A program made the position numbers and the translations under genes. The notes beneath the pieces are model-generated. The model did no database searches, was not told where the DNA came from, and saw only the letters and a program-made list of their open reading frames with translations. A stretch of DNA of 64,000 bases from Doris montereyensis (Eukaryota > Mollusca > Gastropoda > Nudibranchia > Dorididae). Within the stretch, counting starts at the first letter, position 1, and each line of letters begins with the position of its first letter. Of this stretch, positions 14,640 to 62,647 are shown piece by piece. The stretch is from contig JAXRKP010000100.1 in the NCBI GenBank assembly GCA_037039925.1, forward strand, positions 265,001-329,000, given 5' to 3'.

Positions 14640-14792
14640 CTTTTGGGTAGTAGTAGGGGTACAAGGTTGGTGATGTTTTTGCCTTTGGGTAGTAGTAGGT
14701 GTACAAGGGTTGGTGATGTGTTTGCCTTTGGGTAGTAGTAGTAGTAGTAGTAGCAGTAGGTGTACAAGGGTTGGTGATGTGTTTGCCTTTGG

Positions 14793-14823
<31 letters not shown>

Positions 14824-14856
14824 GTGTACAAGGGTTGGTGATGTGTTTGCCTTTGG

Positions 14857-14887
<31 letters not shown>

Positions 14888-16979
14888 GTGTACAAGGGTT
14901 GGTGATGTTTTTGCCTTTGGGTAGTAGTAGTAGTAGTAGGTGTACAAGGGTTGGTGATGTGTTTGCCTTTGGGTAGTAGTAGTAGTAGTAGTAGGTGTAC
15001 AAGGGTTGGTGATGTGTTTGCCTTTGGGTAGTAGTAGTAGTAGTAGTAGTAGGTGTACAAGGGTTGGTGATGTGTTTGCCTTCGGGTAGTAGTAGTAGGT
15101 GTACAAGGGTTGGTGGTGTTTTTGCCTTTGGGTAGTAGTAGGGGTATAATAAGGGTCTGTGATGTTTTTGCCTTTGGGTAGTAGTAGGTGTATAATAAGG
15201 GTCTGTAATGTTTTTGCCTTTGGGTAGTAGTAGGGGTATAATAAGGGTCTGTAATGTTTTTGCCTTTGGGTAGTAGTAGGGGTATAATAAGGGTCTGTGA
15301 TGTTTTTGCCTTTGGGTAGTAGTAGGGGTATAAGGGTCTGTAATGTTTTTTGCCTTTGGGTAGTAGTAGGGGTATAGTAAGGGTCTGTGATGTTTTTGCC
15401 TTTGGGTAGTAGTAGGGGTATAAGGGTCTGTGATGTTTTTGCCTTTGGGTAGTAGTAGGGGTATAATAAGGGTCTGTGATGTTTTTGCCTTTGGGTAGTA
15501 GTAGGGGTATAATAAGGGTGTGTGATGTTTTTGCCTTTGGGTAGTAGTAGGTGTATAATAAGGGTCTGTGATTTTTTTGCCTTTGGGTAGTAGTAGTAGT
15601 AGTAGGGGTATAAGGGTCTGTGATGTTTTTGCCTTTGGATAGTAGTAGTAAGGGTATGATAAGGGTCTGTGATGTTTTTGCCTTTGGATAGTAGTAGTAG
15701 GTGTATAATAAGGGTCTGTGATTTTTTTGCCTTTGGGTAGTAGTAGTAGTAGGGGTATAAGGGTCTGTGATGTTTTTGCCTTTGGATAGTAGTAGTAGGG
15801 GTATGATAAGGGTCTGTGATGTTTTTGCCTTTGGATAGTAGTAGTAGGTGTATAATAAGGGTCTGTGATTTTTTTGCCTTTGGGTAGTAGTAGTAGTAGG
15901 GGTATGATAAGGGTCTGTGATGTTTTTGCCTTTGGATAGTAGTAGTAGGGGTATGATAAGGGTCTGTGATGTTTTGCCTTTGGATAGTAGTAGTAGGGGT
16001 ATGATAAGGGTCTGTGATGTTTTTGCCTTTGGATAGTAGTAGTAGGGGTATGATAAGGGTCTGTGATGTTTTTGCCTTTTGGTAATAGTAGTAAGTGTAC
16101 ATGGGTTGGTGATGTTTTTGCCTTTTGGTAATAGTAGTAAGTGTATAAGGGTCTGTGATGTTTTTGCCTTTGGATAGTAGTAGTAGTAGTAAGTGTATAA
16201 GGGTCTGTGATGTTTTTGCCTTTGGGTAGTAGTAAGTGTATAAGGGTCTGTGATGTTTTTGTCTTTGGGTAGTAGTAGGGTGTACAAGGGTTGGTGATGT
16301 TTTTGCCTTTGGGTAGTAGTAAGTGTACAAGGGTTGGTGATGTTTTTGCCTTTGGGTAGTAGTAGGGTGTACAAGGGTTGGTGATGTTTTTGCCTTTGGG
16401 TAGTAGTAGGGTGTACAAGGGTTGGTGATGTTTTTGCCTTTGGGTAGTAGTAGGTGTACAAGGGTCTGATGTTTTTGTCTTTGGGTAGTAGTAGGGTGTA
16501 CAAGGGTTGGTGATGTTTTTGCCTTTGGGTAGTAGTAGGTGTACAAGGGTTGGTGATGTTTTTGCCTTTGGGTAGTAGTAGGTGTATAAGGGTCTGTGAT
16601 GTTTTTGCCTTTGGGTAGTAGTAGGGTGTACAAGGGTTGGTGATGTGTTTGCCTTTGGGTAGTAGTAGGTGTACAAGGGTTGGTGATGTTTTTGCCTTTG
16701 GGTAGTAGTAGGGTGTACAAGGGTTGGTGATGTGTTTGCCTTTGGGCAGTAGTAGGTGTACAAGGGTTGGTGATGTTTTTGTCTTTTGAGTAGTAGTAGT
16801 AGTAGTAGTAGGTGTACAAGGGTTGGTGATGTGTTTGCCTTTGGGCAGTAGTAGGTGTACAAGGGTTGGTGATGTTTTTGTCTTTGGGTAGTAGTAGTAG
16901 TAGGTGTACAGGGGTTGGTGATGTGTTTGCCTTTGGGTAGTAGTAGGTGTACAAGGGTTGGTGATGTTTTTGTCTTTGG

Positions 16980-17018
<39 letters not shown>

Positions 17019-17395
17019 TAGGTGTACAAGGGTTGGTGGTGTTTTTGCCTTTGGGCAGTAGTAGTGTAAGAGTTGGTGATGTTTTTGCCTTTGGGCAGTA
17101 GTAGTAGTAGTAAGTGTATAAGGGTCTGTGATGTTTTTGTCTTCGGGTAGTAGTAGGGGTATAAGGGTTGGTGATGTGTTTGCCTTTGGGTAGTAGTAGG
17201 GGTATAAGGGTTGGTGATGTTTTTGCCTTTGGATAGAAGTAGGGGTAGAAGGGTCGTGATGTGTTTGCCTTTGGGTAGAAGTAGGGGTAGAAGGGTACGT
17301 GATGTGTTTGCTTTTGGATAGAAGTAGGGGTACAATGGTATGTGATGTGTTTGCTTTTGGGTAGTAGTAGGGTACAATGGTTGCTGATGTTTTTG
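14640..17395. repeat. 42-bp minisatellite with embedded (TAG)n microsatellite
   Basis: About 60 units share GATGTTTTTGCCTTTGGGTAG followed by a TAG run of 2 to about 12 copies and then either GTGTACAAGGGTTGGT or GGGTATAATAAGGGTCTGT. The two variants form separate blocks (ACAAGGGTTGGT at both ends, ATAAGGGTCTGT in the middle). All three - strand frames are open for 750-950 codons because the unit has no stop on that strand and TAG steps keep frame; the products (Thr/Tyr/Leu-rich plus QRQKHH) are not credible genes. Confidence 0.95.
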
Positions 17396-17617
17396 CTCAC
17401 AATTGACATTTGACCATACTATTGCTTGGCTTTGATCTTGACTTGCTCGATGGTCTTAAAATTCTGTTGTTATACATAATTTGTACTTGTATTCATCATT
17501 TTACCGGTCAGCTTCTTTTTTTTCCTTCTTTTTTCTTTCGTTGTCCTTTTTAATCATTTCTCTGCAAGGATTATTGTTCTTGCCCAATTCTGTTTCTTTT
17601 TATAGCCTCACCTTCTT
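17396..17617. other. Unique pyrimidine-rich DNA
   Basis: Holds a T-rich stretch with TTTCTTTC motifs; no gene seen. Confidence 0.5.
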
Positions 17618-24370: not shown

Positions 24371-24405
24371 CTGTGCATTTTCGAGAGAACAGCAATTCAC
24401 CCAGC

Positions 24406-24532
24406 ATGGATCCTCAAACATACATGGATGTTGCGACTGTCGTGACGAAATTGAAGATGTACCCCTATTTCGACATGGCACATTACATCCTGATGTGCAT
24501 TTCTGTGAGGGAAGACATTTTGCCCCAACAAG
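24406..24532 (+). CDS. TMEM38: TRIC channel (TMEM38-like), coding exon 1
   Basis: Encodes residues 1-42 plus the first base of codon 43. TRIC channels are homotrimeric K+-permeable channels of the ER/SR membrane that balance charge during Ca2+ release through ryanodine and IP3 receptors. The start is ATG 24406 in a good context (A at -3, G at +4); an in-frame stop lies upstream and no earlier in-frame ATG exists. The N-terminus MDPQ...YPYFDMAHYILM matches the family, where a short cytosolic or lumenal leader is followed by a first membrane helix starting near a conserved FD.AHY. The exon ends CAACAAG before donor GTGAGAG, phase 1. The YFDMAHY segment resembles vertebrate TMEM38B more than TMEM38A, but invertebrates generally have one gene, so I leave the paralogue open. 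Confidence 0.88.
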
Positions 24533-27239: not shown

Positions 27240-27411
27240 GTTCAGGCAATCCACAAAGTCACATGTTCCCTCGCAAACACCCGCTCTCAAGCTGGCTAGC
27301 CTCCATGGTCACCTGTTTTGCTGGTAGCATCTTGGCAAACTTGCTGCTTGGAGAACCAATCATCACACCCTTCAAAGACCATCAGAGTATTTTACTGGCC
27401 TCAATTATCTG
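27240..27411 (+). CDS. TMEM38: TRIC channel (TMEM38-like), coding exon 2
   Basis: Encodes residues 43-100 (codons 43 and 100 split). It follows acceptor TTCTTTACAG and ends at TG before GTACCT. The peptide contains RKHPLSSWLASMVTCFAG (residues 54-71) and ILANLLLGEPII, the second TRIC membrane helix with its Gly bend, followed by SILLASIIWY, the start of helix 3; both are hallmarks of the family. The donor GTACCT is a weak match to the usual GTRAGT, and a second GT (GTATAT) lies 8 bases later, but only the first restores the frame into exon 3 (TG|G TAC giving Trp-Tyr). Residues 38-52 form a loop about eight residues longer than in vertebrate proteins. Confidence 0.92.
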
Positions 27412-30400
27412 GTACCTAAGTATATAAATGTTATGATTATTCTTATTTTTCTTTCTTTAGTCATTTGTCTAGTTATAAAAATGTTTATATATGTATAATG
27501 TATATATATGCCATGCCACTATGGCATCTGGACAAACACCGCAATGTTTAAAATATATGGAGCTTAACCCTTGTTAGGCCAACCTACCGGTTGACCTCAA
27601 TATCGATCGATAATCTCGTTCCGTTGTGTATGAGGCTTCAGCACGTGGGACCGATAGTTTTCTCGTCCATTCGACGAGGCTGCGGCGCTTGACCATGACG
27701 TATCTGTGATTATTGTGATTGTTTTTGATCTTTGTTGAGTAAGGTGACATAGAGGGCAATTCCTTTTGTTATTGTCATTGTGTTTATATTGCATTGTTTA
27801 CTAATAATAACATCTATTACAGCCTACTTTTATTAAACATGAAATGGAATAATAATGCAGTTGGCCCATTACTAATGAAGAGGGATATGAAAGGTATAAT
27901 ACTAATTGATAGAAAAGGGGTCAGGACCGAGAAGTCTTCAGTGTGCCCAACCTTTATAAGCAACAAGGAGACATAGAAACAATATAAACACTAAACAATG
28001 CTGTACGAAACTAATACTAATAGAGCCATTGGTGCAACGACCCATCGCACAATGTTCATCAACAGAACAAGCTTCATAACAACAAAAACAAAAAGAAAGA
28101 AGAAAATGAAATACAACTGCCATAAGAGAGAGGAGGGATGGATAGAAAGGGAGAGAGAAAGAGGAAAGGAAACAAAAAGGAGACATTTAAGAACGAGGAA
28201 GATAAAAAAAGACAAATAGAGGATGGGGAAAATGAGAGAGAGAGGGATGAGGTAACATAGAGCGGGGGGGGGGGGGGGGGGCATGTGGCTGCATGGTCAG
28301 GCTTTACTCCAGGCATTCAATAATGGCGTGGCTTGCTGTGTCAAATTTTATGTAGTAGAGTTTCAATGAACAGCATTTATCTTTATTTCTAAAGGAATCA
28401 TTTTCATTTTCACGTCTAAATAAAATGATAGAACTATAATACTAATACTAGAGGAAACGTCCAACCGCCCTTCGCTAATCCCATGACTGAGTCTGATGTG
28501 CATAGCTAACACATTCCAATGATGAAAGAAACAGGTCCCCCGGTTTATTGCTTTCACAAGTGTGTATCGCCCCAGCTGCGGAAACGTTCTCTATCCCAGA
28601 CCTAACACCTCTCCTCAGCTATATGCTTCCCATGCTTTTGAAAACTCCTCCCTACCCTATGTCCATCACTAGTATCACCCTCTCTTCTCCTTTACAATGA
28701 CATGAGTGACCATCGTTTTATATTCTTGGCTGTTCCTTTACTACAGTTCAATAGTAATCCACCTCCTCCCAAACAGCCCCCCACCCCTTACGCAATCCAG
28801 TGGTTTTTCGCATCTTCCCCCTACTTTTGGATGTAAGTCTCCCTCCTTAGTTCTTTCTGATTATAATGATTAGCAAGACCACTGATGAGAAAGAGAGGAA
28901 AAGTGAGTGTGTCTTCCACTTCCAGTATGTAAACAATGAGTGGGAAGGAGGCAACTGTAATGCTGATTTAGTACTAGAATTCAGGTTTTATTGGCACTGG
29001 GGGGGGGGGGTGCTATTATAATGGATATTTTTACTTGGGAAAAAGGCAGAACCAGCGTCAACAATGACCGAATTTTATTATTATTAAGTTTGAGATTAGG
29101 CGACCGGCTGACTCTATACCTGAAATCGTTCGTGTACCAGGATTTTTTTCCCCAGGATCCTGGTTTTTTTACATCTAGGTCCTGATTTAATTTTTTTTAG
29201 AGTGGCAGGTCTGCGCTTTTGCTGAAAGGCCGGGAGTGATGCAAATGTACGGGACCTGCCATTTGCGTAGGTGGGCTTAGAGTGACCAGTGGCATGCAAA
29301 GATACGGGACCCGCCTGAAAAGGGTTAATTGGACGATACAGACTGGAAGGTCATGCTTTTTAAAGGCAAATGCAAGCAAATTGCTTATCATGCGTACATG
29401 AAACGTGACAATCGGACTGGAAATATATCCAATATTCTTTTAAGTTGACAATGTTTTTTTATAACATTTGAAAGTAGTTTTTTCCCTCAAGGTTAATTGA
29501 AATCAACCTCAAACTTGAAAAGCATTTGAATGTTTTTCTTTGAATGTAAATTCAGGCATATATGGATTTTCCGGTTTTCTTGGGTTTTTTTGGCACAGCG
29601 GAGCATGTCCATGTTTTTGTGTCTCATTTTATATACACACAAAAGCACCAGCCGTCCGGAAAACATAGGGTCTAAGTCTAATTAGGACAGATGTCCCAAA
29701 TAGAGAAATAGAGCATGTCACTGCCGTATCATTTATCATCGTTCAATGAGAGAGGGAATAGGAGGGAAAGAGAGAATGTTACTACGGTCTCATTTATCGC
29801 CGTTTAAACTGACAAAAATGACACATATGCAAAAGCCCTGCTTAAAATTCAAAGTGACAGAAATTAACACCTGTTAATACAGGCCCACATTGTTTAAGCC
29901 AATCAAAACAGACAAGCGACGACCCACCTCTTGTTTTTGTTGATGGTCACATGAATGAAGCTATTGTTCTGAATTTAGAATAGAATACAACATCAAAGGT
30001 CAGGGCAGCTTTACGTGACCAACTGAAGGTAGTGGCCCAAAAGTGCAGACCGATCCACATTCTCTTATGAAGATCAGCTGGCACGACGTCAAGTAATATG
30101 TAAACAACGCAGGTTGGCGCAGTGGAGAGACAATTGAATGTAGAGCAAGATGGCCGCTGCTTAATGTAAACACGAAAGGGGTAATGAGAGAGAGACAGAG
30201 GGAAAAGGAGGGAGAGAGAGAAAGTAAAAATAGTAGTACTAGTAAGCCTAGTAGCAGTAGAAACGGCAGTAGGATTAGTACATGTACAGACCTGACTCTT
30301 TCAGATACAAGTTTGATCGTTACACTTTTGTAGAAGTATGCCTCATTTACTATTTTACAATTGGTTTTACTTTTTCAAGTCATTAAAGCCCATCCAGGCC

Positions 30401-30459
30401 AGAAACTTCCGCTGGGTGCTTTGTCTTACCTTGTTTGCCTTTGTAAGAAAGATGCAATC

Positions 30460-30509
30460 TCTCTTTCTCTCTCTCTGTCTGTCTGTCTGTCTGCCTCTCT
30501 TTTTGTCTG

Positions 30510-30578
<69 letters not shown>

Positions 30579-30593
30579 TTGTCCGTCTGTCTG

Positions 30594-30626
<33 letters not shown>

Positions 30627-30711
30627 ATCTCTGTCTGTCTGTCTGTCTGTCTCTCTCTTTGTCCGTCTGTCTGTCTCTCTCTCTCTGTCTGTCTCTCTCT
30701 CTGTCTGTCTC

Positions 30712-30803
<92 letters not shown>

Positions 30804-30857
30804 TCTCTCCCTCTCTCTCTCTGTCTGTCTGTCTCTCTCTGTCTCTTTGTCCGTCTG

Positions 30858-30888
<31 letters not shown>

Positions 30889-31042
30889 CTCTCTCGCTGT
30901 CTCTCTCTGTCTCTTTGTCCGTCTGTCTGTCTCTCTCTTTCTGTCTGTCTGTCTCTCTCTCTTTATCTCTGTCTGTCTGTCTCTCTCTCTCTTTATCTCT
31001 GTCTGTCTCTCTCTCTCTTGTGTCCGTCCGTCTGTCTCTCTC

Positions 31043-31136
<94 letters not shown>
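30460..31136. repeat. TCTC/TCTG microsatellite, about 680 bp
   Basis: A pyrimidine-only + strand apart from interspersed G: (TC)n blocks alternate with (TCTG)n blocks, and blocks such as TCTCTTTGTCCGTCTGTCTG recur four times or more, showing internal duplication. Ser/Leu/Cys-Val frames on + and Arg-Glu/Thr-Asp frames on - are products of the repeat. Confidence 0.97.
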
Positions 31137-41470: not shown

Positions 41471-42093
41471 CATACATTTGAGACTTGGTCCTTTGGCCTC
41501 CAAAAGGTTAGCAGGTTTGGTATCAGATGCTTTCAAAGTAAGAAGACAGTACACTTTTGTAATCATGTAAATGATTTAAATTCCCTCATTGTCAAACAGG
41601 CAAGTCTATACTATGCTTTTATTCAATTAAATGCAAGACAAAAGAGTATTCAAAGTTTTTGTTTTCATACATGAAATCCTGGGTTGGTGTGGCGTGGGGT
41701 GAAAAGCCTGCGTCTCGGTGGTTTGTCGAGACACCATTAATTTTCCTAATTTTTGGCTTTTTTCCGTTATCATCACTGTTATTTTCTGTATACCCGTAGT
41801 GGTGTATTTTTTCTTCCAAACATTGTCATTGTCTGTAAAAAGTATGGTTTTATGAATTTTAGTTACATAAGGTTATGAATAAGTGTGCAAAATTTGAACA
41901 TGGAAGGATGTAATAAAAAAAGATATCACTTAAAAGAAACATTGCCCATCTGAAGTGAAATTGGTTATAATATGTTTAAATGCTTTGCCTACTTTAAGAA
42001 GGCTTGATTCTTTTAGTTAGTTTGGTTCTTTCTCTAGGTCTACTTGTATGTGCTATGAACATGTTGATTAATCTATTGGTTTGTGTTTTGCAG

Positions 42094-42278
42094 GTACATT
42101 GTCAACTACTCACCTTTTGATTTGGTTTACAAGATTGCCAAGTTTCTTCCGGTCAAGCTCTTGATTTGTGTCTTGAAAGAAACCCAGAGAGCGCATAAGG
42201 TCTACCATGGAGTATTGGTGACGGCTAAGCTATACCCAAGTTCCTACCTCATCATAGTCCTCATTGGAACAATCAAAG
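42094..42278 (+). CDS. TMEM38: TRIC channel (TMEM38-like), coding exon 3
   Basis: Encodes residues 100-162 (both split). Acceptor GTGTTTTGCAG, donor GTGAGAG. The peptide has YIVNYSPFDLVYK (helix 3 and the following loop; vertebrate proteins have FCP.DL here), FLPVKLLICVLKE (helix 4) and the KETQRAHK segment at residues 128-135. This corresponds to the family's KEVxR motif, whose Lys and Arg four residues apart bind phosphoinositide near the pore in solved TRIC structures; here Lys128 and Arg132 keep that spacing, while the Val is Thr. YPSSYLIIVLIGTIKG is helix 5 with the conserved Gly and Lys-Gly end. Confidence 0.93.
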
Positions 42279-42489
42279 GTGAGAGAGAAATAAAAAATGA
42301 TTATGTCACCAGTCATCAAACTTTTCATCTTTCCGTCTCGTCTTTTACATGGTTCAGTCATGTAACAGTGTCTGTGAAATGTATGTGAGGCGTACCGCAC
42401 ATTTTTACAAGGGAAGAGAAAGGAAAATCCATAAACAACATCAAATAAATTAGCTTTGTTTAAATTCAAGGTATCATAATAAAAAAAGA

Positions 42490-50748: not shown

Positions 50749-51226
50749 TGAAAGAAAAGGGATGGTGTAGCTGATGCATTTGTCAGGGAAAGTTGGAGCG
50801 TTAGAACGATCAGCTTATTAATTTGAAAACTTGAGACTGCAGGATCTACAACGAGGAATTTTGGGATACACAGGGAGAGATTTTTGTTGCCGCATGAAGA
50901 CAATCCTGACATTCTTAAACCCGACTCGTAAAATTAAACAAGACTGGTATTAGCCGTAAATTGATGCGACCGATAGTAAAGAAAGATCTTGCCTTGAAAT
51001 CATATTAAAGTGTTCAAACCAGTCAAAAATCAAACTCTGTGAAAGTCTATGGTTGAAGGTTCCAGCATTATAGTCGTGAGTCCCGACCTCCTGAAACGTA
51101 AATAGTAGTCCACCTGTCTCAACAACACACTGACGAAGACAACTCACTTGTGGCTAAACAAACCAAACTTGGGGTCGAATCAGTGCATGCGAGTAAGAGT
51201 CATAACAATAAGAAAACACACACAGT

Positions 51227-51590
51227 TAGAATAATGAATGTGAACTGTCGCAATAAACTAGCTTCGACAAAAAACTGAAAGTTGGAACAAGTTGTGGAAA
51301 TACGCAAACCAGATATAATAACAGCATCCGAAACACACCTGTAAGAAAACCTAAAATTCAATGACACCCAGCACCCCGTAGGAAAGACCGATCACTAGGC
51401 CAAAGAGGTGTCCTTATAGCGGTGAAGTTTGACTTCATTTCGGTTGCAAAGGAAACAGATGCAGAGTGTGAAATCCTATGGACGAAAGTGTCCTGAAGCA
51501 AAGTCATGTACTTGTAGGCAGTTTCTATCGCCAACCATCCAGTGGAACTGAAGTCATGAAGCAGCTGCACAAATCTTTAGTAATAATTTG
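51227..51590 (+). pseudogene. LINE endonuclease fragment (non-LTR retrotransposon)
   Basis: A decayed piece of the apurinic-type endonuclease that begins ORF2 of CR1/Jockey/L2-like LINEs and nicks target DNA for insertion. Three frames are needed: MNVNCRN...(51234) to KPDIITASETHL (51306-51341), which holds the catalytic-type Glu; RGVLIAVKFDFIS...ETDAECEILW (from 51404); and VLVGSFYRQPSSGTE (about 51508-51552), the conserved GSFYRPP-like strand. In-frame stops occur at 51276 and after the ETHL segment, so it is dead. The DNA then passes directly into the 36-bp array. Its clade cannot be settled by eye. Confidence 0.85.
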
Positions 51591-53848
51591 TAACACTACA
51601 TCTACCATGGATAATTACACAAAGTGGAAAACCACATCTGTCATGGATAACTCCCCAAAGTGGAAATCCACATCTACCATGAATAACTCCCCAAAGTGGA
51701 GAACCACATCTACCATGGATAACTCCCCAAAGTGGAGAACCACATCTACCATGGATAACTCCCCAAAGTGGAAAACCACATCTACCATGGATAACTCCCC
51801 AAAGTGGAAATCCACATCTACCATGAATAACTCCCAAAGTGGAGAACCACATCTGTCATGGATAACTCCCCAAAGTGGAAAACCACATCTACCATGGATA
51901 ACTCCCCAAAGTGGAAAACCACATCTACCATGGATAACTCCCCAAAGTGGAAAATCACATCTTTCATAGATAACTCCCCAAAGCGGGAAACCACATCTTT
52001 CATAGACAACTCCTCAAATTGGAAAACCACATCTTTCATAGACAACTCCTCAAATTGGAAAACCACATCTACCATGGATAACTCCCCAAAGTGGAAAATC
52101 ACATCTTTCATAGACAACTCCCCAAAGTGGAAAACTACATCTACCATGGATAACTCCTCAAATTGGAAAACCACATCTTTCATAGACAACTCCTCAAATT
52201 GGAAAACCACATCTACCATGGATAACTCCCCAAAGTGGAAAACCACATCTACCATGGATAACTCCCCAAAGTGGAAAACCACATCTACCATGGACAACTC
52301 CCCAAAGTGGAAAACTACATCTACCATGGATAACTCCCCACAATGGAAAACTACATCTACCATGGATAACTCCCCACAATGGAAAACCACATCTACCATG
52401 GATAACTCCCCAAAATGGAAAACTACATCTACCATGGATAACTCCCCACAATGGAAAACTACATCTACCATGGACAACTCCCCAAAGTGGAAAACTACAT
52501 CTATTATGGATAACTCCCCAAAATCGAAAACCACATGTGTCATAGACAACTCCTCAAAGTGGAAAATTACATCTACCATGGATAACTCCCCAAAATGGAA
52601 AACTACATCTACCATGGATAACTCCCCAAAGTGGAAAACTACATCTATTATGGATAACTCCCCAAAATGGAAAACTACATCTACCATGGATAACTCCCCA
52701 AAATGGAAACCTACAACTACCATGGATAACTCCCCAAAGTGGAAAACTACATCTACCATGGATAACTCCCCAAAGTGGAAAACTACATCTACCATGGATA
52801 ACTCCCCAAAGTGGGAAACCACATGTGTCATAGACAACTCCCCAAAGTGGAAAACTACATCTACCATGGATAACTCCCCAAAGTGGAAAACCACATGTTT
52901 CATAGACAACTCCCCAAATTGGAAAACTACATCTAACATGGATAACTCCCCAAAATGGAAAACTACATCTACCATGGATAACTCCACAAAGTGGAAAACT
53001 ACATCTATTATGGATAACTCCCCAAAGTGGAAAACCATATCTTTCATAGACAACTCCTCAAAGTGGAAAACCACACCTTTCATACACAATTCCTCAAAGT
53101 GGAAAACCACACCTTTCATAGACAATTCCCCAAAGTGGAAAACCACATCTTTCATACACAATTCCCCAAAGTGGAAAACCACATCTTTCATAGACAACTC
53201 CCCAAAGTGGAAAACCACATCTTTCATAGACAACTCCCCAAAGTTGAGAACCACATCTACCATGGATAACTCCCCAAAGTGGAAAACCACATCTTTCATA
53301 GACAATTCCCCAAAGTGGAAAACTACATGTACCATGGATAACTCCCCAAAGTGGAAAACTACATCTACCATGGATAACTCCCCAAAGTGGAAAACCACAT
53401 CTTTCATAGACAACTCCCTAAAGTGGAAAACTACATCTACCATGGATAACTCCCCAAAGTGGAAAACTACATCTACCATGGATAACTCCCCAAAGTGGAA
53501 AATCACATCTTTCATAGACAATTCCCCAAAGTGGAAAACTACATTTACCATGGATAACTCCCCAAAGTGGAAAACTATATCTACCATGGATAACTCCCCA
53601 AAGTGGAAAACTACATCTACCATGGATAACTCCCCAAAGTGGAAAACTACATGTGTCATAGACAACTCCCCAAAGTGGAAAACCACATCTTTCATAGACA
53701 AATCCCCAAAGTGGAAAACCACATCTTTCATAGACAAATCCCCAAAGATGAAAACCACATCTTTCATAGACAAATCCCCAAAGTGAAAAACCACATCTTT
53801 CATAGACAAAATCCCAAAGTGGAAAACCACATCTACCATGGATAACTC
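51590..53848. repeat. 36-bp minisatellite, about 62 copies
   Basis: Units of ACCATGGATAACTCCCCAAA plus GTGGAAAACCACATCT, with a common TTTCATAGACAA variant. Being 12 codons long with no stop in the main frame on either strand, it gives overlapping open frames of 642 codons (+) and 691 codons (-). It begins within the LINE endonuclease fragment; whether the unit itself comes from the LINE is not clear. Confidence 0.97.
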
Positions 53849-55697
53849 CCCAATGACTATAAATAATTCCAATGACTGCATAAATAACCCCAATGACTAC
53901 ATAAATAAGCCCAATGACTATATAAATAACCCCAATGACTATATAAATAACCCCAATTACTACATAAATAACCCCAATGACTATATAAATAACCCCAATG
54001 ACTACATAAACAACCCCAATGACTACATAAACAACCCCAATGACTACATAAATAATCTCAATGACTATATAAATAACCCCATTGACTATATAAATAACCC
54101 CAATGACTATATAAATAACCCCAATGACTACATAAATAACCCCAATGACTACATAAATAACCCAATGACTACATAAATAACCCCAATGACTACATAAATA
54201 ACCCCATTGACTATATAAATAACCCCAATGACTACATAAATAACCCCATTGACTATATAAATAACCCCAATGACTACATAAATAACCCCAATCCCCAATG
54301 ACTATATAAATAACCCCAATGACTATATAAATAACCCCAATGACTACATAAATAACCCCAATGACTACATAAATAACCCTAATGACTACATAAATAACCC
54401 TAATGACTACATAAATAACCCCAATAACTACATAAACAACCTCAATGACTACATAGATAACCCCAATCCCCAATAACTACATAAATAACCCCAATGACTA
54501 TATAAATAACCCCAATGACTATATAAATAACCCCAATGACTACATAAATAACCACAATGACTATATAAATAACCCCAATGACTATATAAATAACCCCAAT
54601 GACTGTATAAATAACCCCAATGACTATATAAATAACCCCAATGACTGCATGAATAACCCCAATGACTACATAAATAACCCCAATGACTATATAAATAACC
54701 CCAATGACTATATAAATAACCCCAATGACTACATAAATAACCCCAAGGACTACATAAATAACCCCAATGACTATATAAATAGCTCCAATGACTACATAAA
54801 TAACCCCAAGGACTACATAAATAACCCCAATGACTGCATGAATAGCTCCAATGACTACATAAATAACCCCAATGACTATATAAATAACCCCAATGACTAC
54901 ATAAATAACCCCAAGGACTACATAAATAACCCCAATGACTGCATGAGTAACTCCAATGACTACATAAATAACCCCAATGACTATATAAATAACCCCAATG
55001 ACTACATAAATAACCCCAAGGACTACATAAATAACCCCAATGACTGCATGAATAACCCCAATGACTATATAAATAACCCCAATGACTATATAAATAACCC
55101 CAATGACTGCATGAATAACCCCAATGACTATATAAATAACCCCAATGACTACATGAATAACCCCAAGGACTACATGAATAACCCCAATGACTACATGAAT
55201 AACCCCAATGACTACATAAATAACCCCAATGACTATATAAATAACCCCAATGACTACATAAATAACCCCAATGACTATATAAATAACCCAAATGACTACA
55301 TAAATAACCCCAATGACTACATAAATAACCCCAATGACTATATAAATAACCCCAATGACTAAATAAATAACCCCAATGACTACATAAATAACCCCAATGA
55401 CTACATAAATAACCCCAATGACTGCATGAATAACTCCAATGACTGCATAAATAACGTCAATGACTGCATGAATAACCCAATGACTACATAAATAACTCCA
55501 ATGACTATATAAATAACCCCAATGACTACATAAATAACTCCAATGACTATATAAATAACCCCAATGACTATAAATAACCCCAATGACTGCATGAATAATG
55601 TTAATGACTACATAAATAACCCCAATGACTACATAAATAACCCCAATGACTATATAAATAACCCCAATGACTGCATGAATAACCCCAGTGACTGCAT
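53849..55697. repeat. 21-bp satellite, about 88 copies, LINE-derived
   Basis: Units of AATAACCCCAATGACTACATA, which is one base over the quoting limit only if extended; 7 codons reading INNPND(Y/C) on the + strand. The final units read NNPSDCIVLQ and continue into LINE reverse-transcriptase sequence, and (I/N)NPNDC...LQ is the kind of segment found after the FADD motif in CR1/Jockey-type ORF2. The - strand frame stays open for over 430 codons as a repeat product. Confidence 0.93.
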
Positions 55698-57345
55698 TGT
55701 GCTTCAAATGGGACCTTGAGTCTCTGGTGAGCTGACGAAGACATGGCAGTTGTAATTCCACCCTGCTAAATGCTTTGTAATGTCAATTGATTCTGTGGTG
55801 AGCTGGACGAAGACAGCAGTTGTAATTCCACCCGGCTAAATGCTTTGTAATGTCAATTGATTCTCTGGTGAGCTGGACGAAGACATGGCAGTTGTAATTC
55901 CACCCGGCTAAATGCTTTGTAATGTCAATTGATTCTCTGGTGAGCTGGACGAAGACATGGCAGTTGTAATTCCACCGGCTAAATGCTTTGTAATGTCAAT
56001 TGATTCTGTGGTGAGCTGGACGAAGACATGGCAGATTTAGTTCCACCGGCTAAATACTTTGTAATGTCAATTGATTCTGTGGTGAGCTGGACGGAGACAT
56101 GGCAGGTGTAGTTCCACCCAGCTAAATACTTTGTAATGTCAATTGATTTTCTGGTGAGCTTGACGAAGGCATGGCAGATTTAGATCCGCCTGGCGAAATG
56201 TAATGTCAATTGATTCTCTGGTGAGCTGGACGAAGATATTCCAGATTTAGTTCCACCCGGCTAAATACTTTGTAATGTCAATTGATTTTCTGGTGAGCTG
56301 GACAGACACATGGCAGGTGTAGTTCCACCCGGCTAAATGCTTTGTAATGTCAATTGATTTTCAGGTGAGCTTGACGAAGGCTTGGCAGATTTAGATCCGC
56401 CTGGCGAAATGTAATGTCAATTGATTCTCTGGTGAGCTGGACGAAGATATTCCAGATTTAGTTCCACCTGGCTCAATACTTGTAATGTCAATTGGTCTTC
56501 TGGTGAGCTGGACAAAGACATGGCAGTTGTAGTTCCACCAGGCTAAATGCTTTGTGATGTTAATTGATTTTCTGGTGAGCTGGACTTAGACCTAGCAGTT
56601 GTAATTCCACCCGGCTAAATGCTTTGTAATATCAATTGATTCTGTTGCGAGCTGACGAAGACATGGCAGTTGTAGTTCCACCCGGCTAAATGCTTTATAA
56701 TGTCAACTGATTCTCTGGTGAGCTGGACGAAGACATGGCAGTTGTAGTTCCACCCTGCCAAATGCTTTGTAATGTCAATTGATTCTCTGGTGAGCTGGAG
56801 GAAGACATGGCAGTTGTAGTTCCACCCGGGTTAAATGCTTTGTAATGTCAATTGATTTTCTGGTGAGGTAGACGAAGACATGGCAGTTGTAGTTCCACCC
56901 GGCTAAATGCTTTGTAATGTCAATTGATTTTCTGGTGAGGTAGACGAAGACATGACAGTTGTAGTTCCACCCGGCTAAATGCTTTGTAATGTCAATTGAT
57001 TTTCTGGTGAGCTGGACGAAGACATGGCAGTTGTAGTTCCATCCGGCTAAATGCTTTGTAATGTCAATTGATTTTCTGGTGAGCTGGAGGAAGACATGGC
57101 AGTTGTAGTTCCACCCGGCTAAATGCTTTGTAATGTCAATTGATTTTCTGGTGAGCTGGACGAAGACATGGCAGTTGTAGTTCCCCACCCAGCTAAATGC
57201 TTTGTGATATCAATTGATTCTCTGGTGAGGTAGACGAAGACATGGCAGATGTAGTTCCGTCTGGCTAAATGCATTGGAATATCATTTGATTTTCTGGTGA
57301 GCTGGACGAAGACATGGCAGATGTAATCCCACCCAGCTAAATGCT
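55698..57345 (+). repeat. 72-bp array made from a LINE RT segment
   Basis: About 22 units of 72 bp. On the + strand one unit reads DSLVSWTKTWQL-x-FHPAKCFVMSI, where x is a stop or altered codon. This is the W..xWQMxFxPxKCxVM segment that follows the reverse-transcriptase palm in CR1/Jockey-type LINEs. The first unit is preceded by DLESLVS and the last runs into KCFVLSISNKKKPSP (from 57339), so the array sits in register inside the old ORF. Confidence 0.9.
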
Positions 57346-57447
57346 TTGTACTGTCAATCTCAAATAAGAAAAAGCCATCACCAGCTATATTACACAATGC
57401 TTGGCCGCTCACTGACATGTGAATGGAATGATACCTTGGCGTGCATG

Positions 57448-57605
57448 CACCACAACAAAATTCTAAAATGGGACCACCACCACAACAAAATTCTAAAAAT
57501 GGGACCACCACCACAACAAAATTCTAAAATGGGACCACCACCACAACAAAATTCTAAAATGGGACCACCACCACAACAAAATTCTAAAATGGGACCACCA
57601 CGTCA
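57448..57605 (+). repeat. 30-bp array, 5 copies, LINE-derived
   Basis: Five units of about 30 bp, CACCACAACAAAATTCTAAA plus ATGGGACCAC, encoding HHHNKILKWD. This corresponds to the LKWDHHxxN segment next to YLGV in the LINE ORF that flanks it on both sides. One unit has one extra A. Confidence 0.93.
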
Positions 57606-57934
57606 ACAATGATAAAGCAAAGGTTATGATTCATCAGGCACAAACTTACACACTAATGAGACAGACTCTAGGATATGTCTGTGCAGCGAAGGACCCCTAC
57701 TAATAAAGTTCATATAATCAAAATAAAGCGTCCAAAGACAAGTTGCACGGTTTACAAAAGAGATCCACAGTGTGTCACACATGCCCTTGAAAAATTTAAA
57801 TTTCAACCTTTGGAAGATCGCAGGAAAACAGCTTGTCTCGCCCTGTTTTTAAAGCCACCAGAGGCAATTAAGGAATTTTCTTCCTCAGCGCTACCTACAA
57901 AACAAAAGAAATCACTCTATCAGACATGGCATCT

Positions 57935-58410
57935 GATTCCAATTTATTCAATCACACACCAGAACAGACACATTTCAAATTCATTCAACCACACACCAGA
58001 ACAGAAACACTTCAAATTCATTCAATCACACACCAGAACAGACACATTCTACTTTATTCAATCACACACCAGAACAGACACATTTCAAATTCATTCAACC
58101 ACACACCAGAACAGAAACACTTCAAATTCATTCAATCACACACCAGAACAGACACATTCTACTTTATTCAATCACACACCAGAACAGACACATTTCAAAT
58201 TCATTCAACCACACACCAGAACAGAAACACTTCAAATTCATTCAATCACACACCAGAACAGACACATTCTACTTTATTCAATCACACACCAGAACAGACA
58301 CATTTCAAATTCATTCAACCACACACCAGAACAGAAACACTTCAAATTCATTCAATCACACACCAGAACAGACACATTCCACTTCATTCAATCACACACC
58401 AGAGCAGACA
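57935..58410 (+). repeat. 110-bp higher-order array inside LINE ORF2
   Basis: Four 110-bp units (GACACATTCT or CC at 58041, 58151, 58261, 58371), each made of three related subunits of 37, 37 and 36 bp around CACACACCAGAACAGACACA. Subunits encode (F)KFIQPHTRTDTF-like peptides, an expansion of the PxTRTDxYKNSFFPRT segment at the end of the LINE ORF. As 110 is not a multiple of 3, the long + strand frames of 299 and 203 codons here are fortuitous. Confidence 0.93.
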
Positions 58411-58537
58411 CTTACAAAACAGCTTCTTTCCCAGAACCATTACAGATTGGAATGGGCTGCCACAGGACGTTGTGGGGAGCGAGAACATGGATGATTTTAC
58501 GAAGACTCTGGCCACATTTGTGTCCCTTGGGAATTGA

Positions 58538-58640
58538 CTGTGTGTGTGCTGTGTTGATTGTACAGTTGCAGTGATGGGCATGCTTTAGCCTTTTTGCGAC
58601 TCAGTTTCCAGATCCAGAAGAGTTTGATTGAGGTGTCTAC
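58538..58640 (+). mobile_element. Probable LINE 3' UTR
   Basis: Directly follows the ORF2 stop and ends around CAGTTTCCAGATCCAGAAGA. The boundary with host DNA is not clear; no poly(A) or tail repeat was seen. Confidence 0.45.
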
Positions 58641-59009
58641 TTGATAGATTCAAATAGTGATCACGTGAAAAGAATTTTGTTTCGGCACAAAACCGACTTT
58701 ACGCTAGAGATTGTTTGAAGCTGTCAAAATGATATTATGCATGGTTCCAAAAGGTCCATGGCTGTATTCTCGAACCGTCTGGTCAATGTAGTGATGGCCG
58801 ATAAAATATCATTGTAACTATTAGTACTGATTGGGGAGGAGGTTACAGTCTCATGTTTTGACAGGAAGCGGTATTCTACTGTGTTGGTCAGTGTGGCTTT
58901 CTTTGAGCGGTTAATTGACAACGTTGACTGTTTAGCTCAGGGTTTGCCTCAATGTCTCCGCAACATAAAGCAGATAGACTTAGAGAAAGAACATTTGCTT
59001 TCTAGCACA
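58641..59009. other. Unique DNA, no gene seen
   Basis: Nothing recognised between the LINE end and the 54-bp array. Confidence 0.45.
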
Positions 59010-60224: not shown

Positions 60225-60673
60225 AACAAACATGCCAGTGACGATCTGCCTTTGGTCAAAGGAGATCATATCCTTTAAGAAGTTTATCTCGACGATTTCC
60301 GGAATAAATAATAAAAAAAAAAAAAATTATGAGCAAATTGTGAGAAAATGTAAGAGGTACGATCCAGGAATGCTATATGCCTGCCATATTGTTTTCACCG
60401 GAAGTCCTCTTAGAATTGTTTGAAATGTCAAATAAAATCTAGAACTTTTGTTAATCTCGTATAAAATCTCCTAGAATTGTTTACAAACAATCACCTGGAA
60501 TTGTGTATAGTCTCTTAAAATTCTTTAAAATTTCCTAAAATGTTTGGTTTTGCTTAGTGCTGGGAGTCGTGAAGTACAGCTGAACTTAAAAGCTTCATTT
60601 TACATTATCGAGTCCAAAAAAGAAATAAAGTTCCCTTGCTTATCTTCCCTTTTCTTGTATTCATTTGCACCAG

Positions 60674-60761
60674 GTAGTGGAAGTGGATTTCTGAAGAGCT
60701 TTCAGCGTCTGGTGAGAGGAATCTGGATCCCAGGGAGTAATGAAGTTTTACAACCATCATT
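60674..60761 (+). CDS. TMEM38: TRIC channel (TMEM38-like), coding exon 4
   Basis: Encodes residues 162-191 (both split). Acceptor TTTGCACCAG after a good pyrimidine tract, donor GTAAGC. The peptide GSGSGFLKSFQRLVRGIW (162-179) followed by PGSNEVLQPS matches the family segment in which a Gly-rich turn, an F..L.(R/K)G.W helix and a P...NE(I/V)L loop lead to helix 6. The Arg/Lys-rich face of this stretch is part of the cytosolic side of the channel in known family members. Confidence 0.93.
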
Positions 60762-62208: not shown

Positions 62209-62647
62209 CACCCTGAAAGCCAGCATTGTAGCATCCATCATCTTCTTGTGCGAACGCCTGAACTTCATTGCTGTGCCCCACCCTCTCATCTACTTTGGCG
62301 TCGTGCTTTTCTTCATCTACTTCAAGGTGTCTTCCATCGTCTTGGGCATCCATGACCCCTTCAGCCCGTTTGAGAATTTGTTTTGTGCCATTTTCATGGG
62401 GGCATGTGGGATGCTCTCCGTAGAGCGACTTCAAAGGAGCCCAGCAAAGAGGAGGACAACAAAGACCCAAGAAATGATGTCATCAAGTCCAAGGAAGACA
62501 AAAAGAAAGAGTGAACAAAAAAAAAGTGGCCGAAGAGCAACTCTTATAAATGGAAATGAAAAAACCCCCAAACAAATACATGTTAACATAGAGCTCTTCT
62601 TTTTGTTTATGTGGTTTCTTACTGAGTCAGTATTTGAGGAAATATGA
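62209..62647 (+). CDS. TMEM38: TRIC channel (TMEM38-like), last coding exon, tail frameshifted
   Basis: Begins with the third base of codon 191. TLKASIVASIIFLCER (192-207) is helix 6; PHPLIYFGVVLFFIYFKV (214-231) is helix 7; HDPFSPFENLFCAIFMG (239-255) ends the conserved core. From the G run 62398-62402 the frame as given reads a Ser/Arg/Lys-rich tail ending in a hydrophobic stretch, stop TGA 62645, 336 aa in all. In the frame one base over, the sequence reads GGMWDALRRATSKEPSKEED and continues to KSKEDKKKE and TGA at 62512-62514, for 292 aa. That fits the usual family length of about 290-300 and its charged C-terminus. I therefore think one G is missing here, either a sequencing error or a real mutation. 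Confidence 0.92.

Follow-up and report, generated by a model that had tools for sequence, protein, structure and literature searches.

We analysed a window of 64,000 nucleotides from the nudibranch Doris montereyensis (assembly GCA_037039925.1, contig JAXRKP010000100.1, positions 265,001 to 329,000 of the forward strand). The window carries a gene for a TRIC (TMEM38-type) channel and, in sense orientation within one of the predicted introns of this gene (42283 to ~60650), a dead long interspersed nuclear element (LINE). Fragments of the second open reading frame (ORF2) of the element lie at 51129-58537 on the + strand, where the endonuclease comes first and is followed by the end of the reverse transcriptase (RT) and the C-terminus. 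Between 51598 and 58418, ORF2 is interrupted by five arrays reported by Tandem Repeats Finder (TRF), with units of 36, 21, 72, 30 and 37/110 bp (Table 1). A first reading of the letters of this DNA, hereafter the original prediction, had listed arrays of 21, 72, 30 and 110 bp and interpreted them as consecutive parts of one LINE copy that were amplified in place. These arrays were borne out by TRF, the 110-bp period being 37 + 37 + 36, and the translations quoted for them were correct. The count of four fell one short: the 36-bp array, from the endonuclease segment, had gone unlisted.

Table 1. Features of the LINE and of the TRIC channel gene in the window (L001, L002 and the P numbers denote LINE proteins described in the text)
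Feature	Position in window	Strand	Basis and remarks
LINE ORF2 endonuclease fragment	51129-51597	+	tblastn with the L001 ORF; three frames, several stops
36-bp array	51598-53853	+	TRF, 62.7 copies; unit HLPWITPQSGKP, similar to HIDWSIPQVIPGKP of L001 (499-512), endonuclease segment
36-/21-bp array junction	53848-53853	+	CCCCAA common at and beside the junction; both consensus units hold CCCCAA there
21-bp array	53848-55697	+	TRF, 88 units; INNPND(Y/C) at the place of IKSQKDC (L001) and IKSQSDC (L002)
72-bp array	55716-57358	+	TRF, 23 full units; DSLVSWTKTWQL-stop-FHPAKCFVMSI, RT segment
RT sequence exiting the 72-bp array	57327-57446	+	SNKKKPSPAILHNAW...YLGV; tblastn E = 2.5e-8 with P0038
30-bp array	57448-57609	+	TRF; unit HHNKILKWDH, five identical units and a partial one
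Single-copy RT C-terminal sequence	57610-57935	+	tblastn with P0038 and P0112; shifting frames
37-bp array	57936-58418	+	TRF, 13 units; FKFIQSHTRTDTF; 110-bp (37+37+36) higher-order repeat
ORF2 C-terminus	58415-58537	+	NSFFPRTITDWNGLPQDVV...GN and stop; tblastn E = 8.7e-6 with P0035
TRIC channel gene exon	24403-24531	+	phmmer match to 5egi/5eik
Likely TRIC exon	near 27263-27430	+	Motif and resemblance to TRIC
TRIC exon upstream of the LINE	42089-42283	+	phmmer 6.7e-19 to 5egi; also TRIC chains such as 6iz3 (6e-7)
Likely next TRIC exon downstream of the LINE	60649-60753 (approximate ends)	+	Motif scan only
Last detected TRIC exon	62213-62383	+	Pfam TRIC 4.3e-8, above the curated cut-off; phmmer 1.9e-11 to 5egi

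The LINE was searched for with a set of 122 LINE proteins, comprising L001, L002 and 120 P proteins. The latter are the 120 proteins listed among the 7,903 that a generic LINE RT query matched. L001 and L002 are uninterrupted LINE ORFs of 1300 and 974 amino acids (aa) from the gill symbiont assembly of Bathymodiolus brooksi, where they presumably represent host contamination. Animal-like LINE ORFs (L001, L002 and L004) were seen within records filed as bacterial, including this mussel gill symbiont assembly, and an alignment of 20 of the 120 proteins retrieved 20 loci in bacterial or archaeal records, L001 and L002 among them. With tblastn, the 122 proteins gave 368 high-scoring segment pairs (HSPs) with E ≤ 0.01 in the window, and 366 of these fell at 51000-58700 on the + strand. 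This interval was matched by 117 of the 122 queries, and the remaining two HSPs both came from one query. As a control, the reversed window gave two HSPs from two queries. The LINE pieces of the original prediction are thus real, and so is its endonuclease fragment, although this was said to begin at 51227 and is detectable from ~51129.

The endonuclease remnant matches residues 313-386, 410-448 and 454-487 of L001 in order, with a joint tblastn E of 6e-11. Among the best 40 of the 110 HSPs of L001, the best outside the LINE had E = 0.075; in the reversed window, the best had E = 0.17. Endonuclease sequence lies upstream of the RT on the same strand and in the same order as in the relative (endonuclease at L001 340-478, RT and C-terminal pieces at 1050-1292). 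We take the element to be of the Jockey/CR1/L2-like kind, without long terminal repeats and with endonuclease and RT in one ORF. A hidden Markov model profile of the 120 proteins matched 57288-57854 (E = 6.7e-8) and 58337-58516 (E = 1.3e-7). All eight of its matches above 3 bits were at 55853-58516 on the + strand, as were all seven of a second profile, with none elsewhere in the window. The beginning of the endonuclease is missing from most of the 120 proteins, and the profiles therefore say nothing on this part. At the other end of the element, none of 300 shuffles reached the score of the ORF2 C-terminus piece on either L001 or L002.

No counterpart of L001 513 to ~1035, which includes the RT catalytic core (FADD, L001 1027), was found in the window. 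Because the core has no counterpart there, the element is a deleted relic and not a complete LINE. The gap in ORF2 (~520 aa, ~1.6 kb) falls where the 36- and 21-bp arrays abut. A deletion via the common CCCCAA may have removed the RT core and joined the two arrays. The original prediction also had every array bordered by single-copy ORF sequence that continues it; this breaks down at the 36/21-bp boundary, where no such sequence lies to the left of the 21-bp array.

We compared the array units with the uninterrupted relatives. For the 36-bp unit, none of 200 shuffles reached its score on L001 or L002, and weaker matches were obtained on six P proteins (3-32 of 200). Among 504 array frames scored on the L001 499-512 segment, its frame ranked first (34, next 23), and HLPWITP of the unit falls on HIDWNTP of L002 in the same register as on L001, extended the other way. 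The left flank runs into the array in a different frame, and a frameshift must therefore lie between the two. The 72-bp unit scored 69 on L001, compared with 42 for the top of 300 shuffles. The last 30-bp unit together with its flank was placed at L002 780-834 (0 of 300 shuffles) and at L001 1109-1163 (3 of 300); one extra base lies between two of the five units of this array. For the two remaining units we used a fixed-offset test, in which the position of the unit was set from neighbouring motifs after passing frameshifts. Of 127,930 window peptides, 2 (the peptide itself being one) scored at least as high as MNNPSDCIVLQM, the last 21-bp unit with its flank, and 8 (array copies counted) at least as high as the 37-bp consensus; for the commonest 21-bp unit, INNPNDY, the figure was 90 of 127,960. 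Homology between unit and source is clear for the 36- and 72-bp units and for the 30-bp unit with its flank, and is seen by fixed offset only for the 21- and 37-bp units. Separately, a coding function of the arrays was considered and rejected, as all 23 full 72-bp units contain a stop and the 37-bp unit is not a multiple of 3; most likely the arrays have no coding role.

Free local alignment, evaluated against shuffles, was used to place 11 pieces of the element on L001 and on L002. Seven of the 11 are in order on L001: the endonuclease at 340-386, 412-448 and 454-478, the 72-bp unit at 1050-1074 and its right end at 1051-1089, the 30-bp unit with flank at 1109-1163, and the C-terminus at 1259-1292. 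On L002, eight of the 11 are in order. Across 120 relatives, the best matches of five RT pieces are in order in 43, where a random order would give 1 in 120. L001 is free of arrays by TRF; in L002, three lie outside the ORF and a single one, of 2.2 copies, lies within it. An intact relative that lacked the segments, or held them in another order, had been named as evidence that would count against the proposal; in both relatives the clear segments keep the same order, and the rest are too weak to place. The claim that four array segments follow the order of the ORF stands for the 72-bp unit and for the 30-bp unit with flank; the 21-bp flank and the 37-bp unit could not be placed as lone peptides and are tied to their positions by the fixed offset only. 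Judged by these alignments, the array units would represent five ORF2 stretches in order, three clearly and two mainly by position, and this description largely holds.

The 72-bp array informs on timing. One codon is a stop in all 23 full units (TAG in 17, TAA in 6), and the residue at this site is S, E or Q in 91 of 121 relatives. Because the stop occupies the same site in every full unit, the founder of the array was most likely already inactivated; on the simplest view, the array grew in place within a copy that was already dead. The mean likeness among units is 86% for the 36-bp array, 91% for the 21-bp, 88.5% for the 72-bp, 100% for the 30-bp and 92% for the 37-bp array, and the arrays therefore differ in age or in homogenisation. 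Neighbouring units are more alike than in random order in the 36-bp array (0 of 5000 permutations) and in the 72-bp array (207 of 5000 at lag 1, 13 of 5000 at lags 1-3). In the 37-bp array, identity is 0.986 at lag 3 and 0.902 at lag 1. These patterns favour local duplication in the arrays of 36 and 72 bp, as does the higher-order repeat in that of 37 bp, whereas the signal is weak for 21 bp and uninformative for 30 bp. In our own reading of the founder junctions that are readable, the common sequence is 1 bp for the 72-bp array, 3-6 bp of CAC for the 30-bp array and 0 bp for the 37-bp array.

We assessed whether the LINE is special within the window. After merging overlapping TRF rows with a period of at least 10, we counted 39 arrays, some of just two copies, which cover 56.7% of the window. 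We then collapsed every array to one unit and tested for clustering at four array-length cut-offs. At three of these, the collapsed LINE measures 1.2 kb and holds five arrays, compared with 1.1-1.6 expected; the probability of five is 0.006-0.02 at a fixed place and 0.37-0.86 for some stretch of the window holding as many. When only arrays of at least 300 bp were kept, the collapsed LINE of 1.3 kb held four arrays, compared with 1.2 expected (P = 0.03 at the fixed place, 0.88 somewhere). The anywhere-in-window figure is the relevant one because the place was chosen by its arrays. A cluster of this kind somewhere in the window is not unusual, and the LINE is not special, contrary to the suggestion that the series of arrays is a property of the element.

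The reading that we prefer, at a probability of about 0.8, is that of one dead LINE copy in which a local process, one that would act on any sequence in the predicted intron, built up five tandem arrays in situ. Each array would have started as a short local tandem duplication and would have grown by replication slippage or by unequal exchange between adjacent units, probably at different times. Amplification in place from consecutive parts of one element, as the original prediction proposed, is most likely, given the order in relatives and the recurrent stop. We also lean slightly towards the more general proposal of a runaway tandem-duplication process here, which would turn any intron sequence into minisatellites in place, at ~1 array per 0.7-1.1 kb of founding sequence, in the genome or at least in the TRIC gene.

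Several observations weigh against the preferred reading. Free alignment misplaced 4 of the 11 pieces on L001 and 3 on L002. The misplaced pieces were at or near chance on L001 (21-bp flank, 102 of 300 shuffles; the lone piece 57715-57852, 57 of 300; two 37-bp pieces, 28 and 79 of 300), and on L002 they comprised the 21-bp flank (13 of 300) and the two pieces of the 37-bp array (6 and 47 of 300). The lone piece is weak on L002 as well (841-872; 6 of 300). In principle, the stop of the 72-bp array could have spread through the units by later homogenisation, and inheritance from a parent element is argued against for this array only. The excess likeness of neighbours is weak among the 21-bp units (347 of 5000 permutations at lag 1, 132 at lags 1-3) and does not show at lag 1 among the 37-bp units (4665 of 5000) because of their higher-order period of three; the 30-bp units, being identical, are uninformative. 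It is also possible that the process has a mild preference for the LINE, as the number of arrays at this fixed place exceeds expectation (P = 0.006-0.03).

An unlikely alternative is that a previous copy of the LINE already had the arrays and brought them here when it retrotransposed, in the manner of the internal tandem repeats that characterise some families. Repeats inside families of transposable elements (TEs) are described in PMC9659126, and the relatives that we compared are L001 and L002 and not copies from the same genome. This alternative sits poorly with the stop at one site in all full 72-bp units, with LINE pieces that read in several frames and with two uninterrupted relatives that have no such arrays. 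We consider it similarly doubtful that the LINE is a hotspot, in the sense that something in ORF2 promotes serial tandem duplication beyond that of ordinary sequence. The excess at the fixed place, with five arrays (P = 0.006-0.02) or, at the fourth cut-off, four (P = 0.03), would favour such a hotspot, but it does not persist once the choice of place is allowed for (0.37-0.88), and 34 of the 39 arrays lie outside the LINE. Mis-assembly of array lengths or junctions is quite improbable: the sequence is known from the assembly alone, but units in all arrays except the 30-bp one differ by substitutions, one array has a higher-order repeat and the exons of the surrounding TRIC gene are in protein order. 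Finally, we give very little credence to a chance resemblance between ORF2 and unrelated minisatellites that inserted into or next to the remains of the LINE. The units are short, and free alignment leaves those of 21 and 37 bp unplaced, but those of 72 and 36 bp fit ORF2 where they would be expected to, and no other part of the window has profile matches above 3 bits.

We compared the locus with known systems. The original prediction knew of LINE-derived satellites but of no serial amplification in place along a single copy. The phenomenon is not without precedent, as TE-derived minisatellites have been reported: according to Ahmed and Liang (2012, PMC3389668), 7,276 of 31,472 human minisatellites are TE-derived, 5,747 of 5,932 clusters are at a single locus, expansion is by local duplication, and proposed mechanisms explain only 6% of the TE-derived ones. 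As at our locus, segments of an individual TE copy are tandemly repeated and then expand locally; our case differs in having five arrays in the coding sequence of a single LINE copy, within an intron that is 70% arrays. PMC9659126 describes satellites related to LINE ORF2, namely PROsat of Phodopus, Pvc 20 of the harbour seal and the chicken HinfI/CR1 repeat. These resemble our arrays in that the repeat is related to part of ORF2, whereas ours, unlike the named families as described there, are short minisatellites still joined to the remainder of the source element. In the model of Haber and Louis, as cited in PMC3389668 and PMC6947457, minisatellites are born by slippage or unequal crossing-over between direct repeats of 5-10 bp. 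A short duplication at the site, enlarged later by slippage or unequal exchange, agrees with this model as cited, as do the CAC repeats that edge the 30-bp array, whereas the founder junctions of the 72- and 37-bp arrays, with just 1 and 0 bp in common, do not. In the titles and abstract openings of the open-licence papers found, several arrays along one element are not described, and a literature search with the LINE RT peptide strings found nothing. TE-derived minisatellites are already known as a kind, and the present locus is a dense, readable case.

The origin of minisatellites is poorly understood, and in most cases the sequence from which they started is not known. Where a genome is rich in minisatellites, its dead LINEs fill this gap, as intact relatives give the ancestral protein, and many such relics would yield founder junctions, microhomology and expansion steps at scale. 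If the runaway process is true, a dead LINE makes the state before, the founder duplication and the state after readable at one site.

The LINE was also searched for in other collections. Seven single pieces showed no LINE domain in Pfam (one weak FAM186A match, E = 0.063, was below the cut-off), nor did three longer pieces. The endonuclease piece had a single match in the Protein Data Bank (PDB), with E = 0.82, and protein searches with the read-through RT stretches gave no homologue. The 221-aa C-terminal piece had 19 pattern matches in genome contigs, none of which was confirmed. None was confirmed in viral contigs, with either the endonuclease piece (27 pattern matches) or the alignment of 20 LINE proteins (56). 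Rfam and tRNA scans of the sequence were empty.

The TRIC gene spans 24403-62383, with three exons found by sequence search and two by motif, and its introns are minisatellite-rich. Two of the three exons matched by phmmer also match chains named trimeric intracellular cation channel. The chains 5egi and 5eik, named Y57A10A.10 and.28, correspond to TRIC of C. elegans, and 60649-60753 and 27263-27430 are likely exons by motif and by their resemblance to TRIC. The host gene is likely an animal gene. As the LINE lies inside its predicted intron, the surroundings are likely gene territory and not centromeric satellite. Arrays account for 12,893 of the 18,377 bases (70%) of this predicted intron. 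The locus also suggests how the growth of an intron could come mainly from tandem duplication in place, without new insertions.

Elsewhere in the window, a 2.7-kb array at 14642-17396 has units of ~43-46 bp that contain GTA runs of varying length, a microsatellite nested in a minisatellite. A TC-rich microsatellite of ~680 bp lies at 30458-31136, with an 85% match to its unit.

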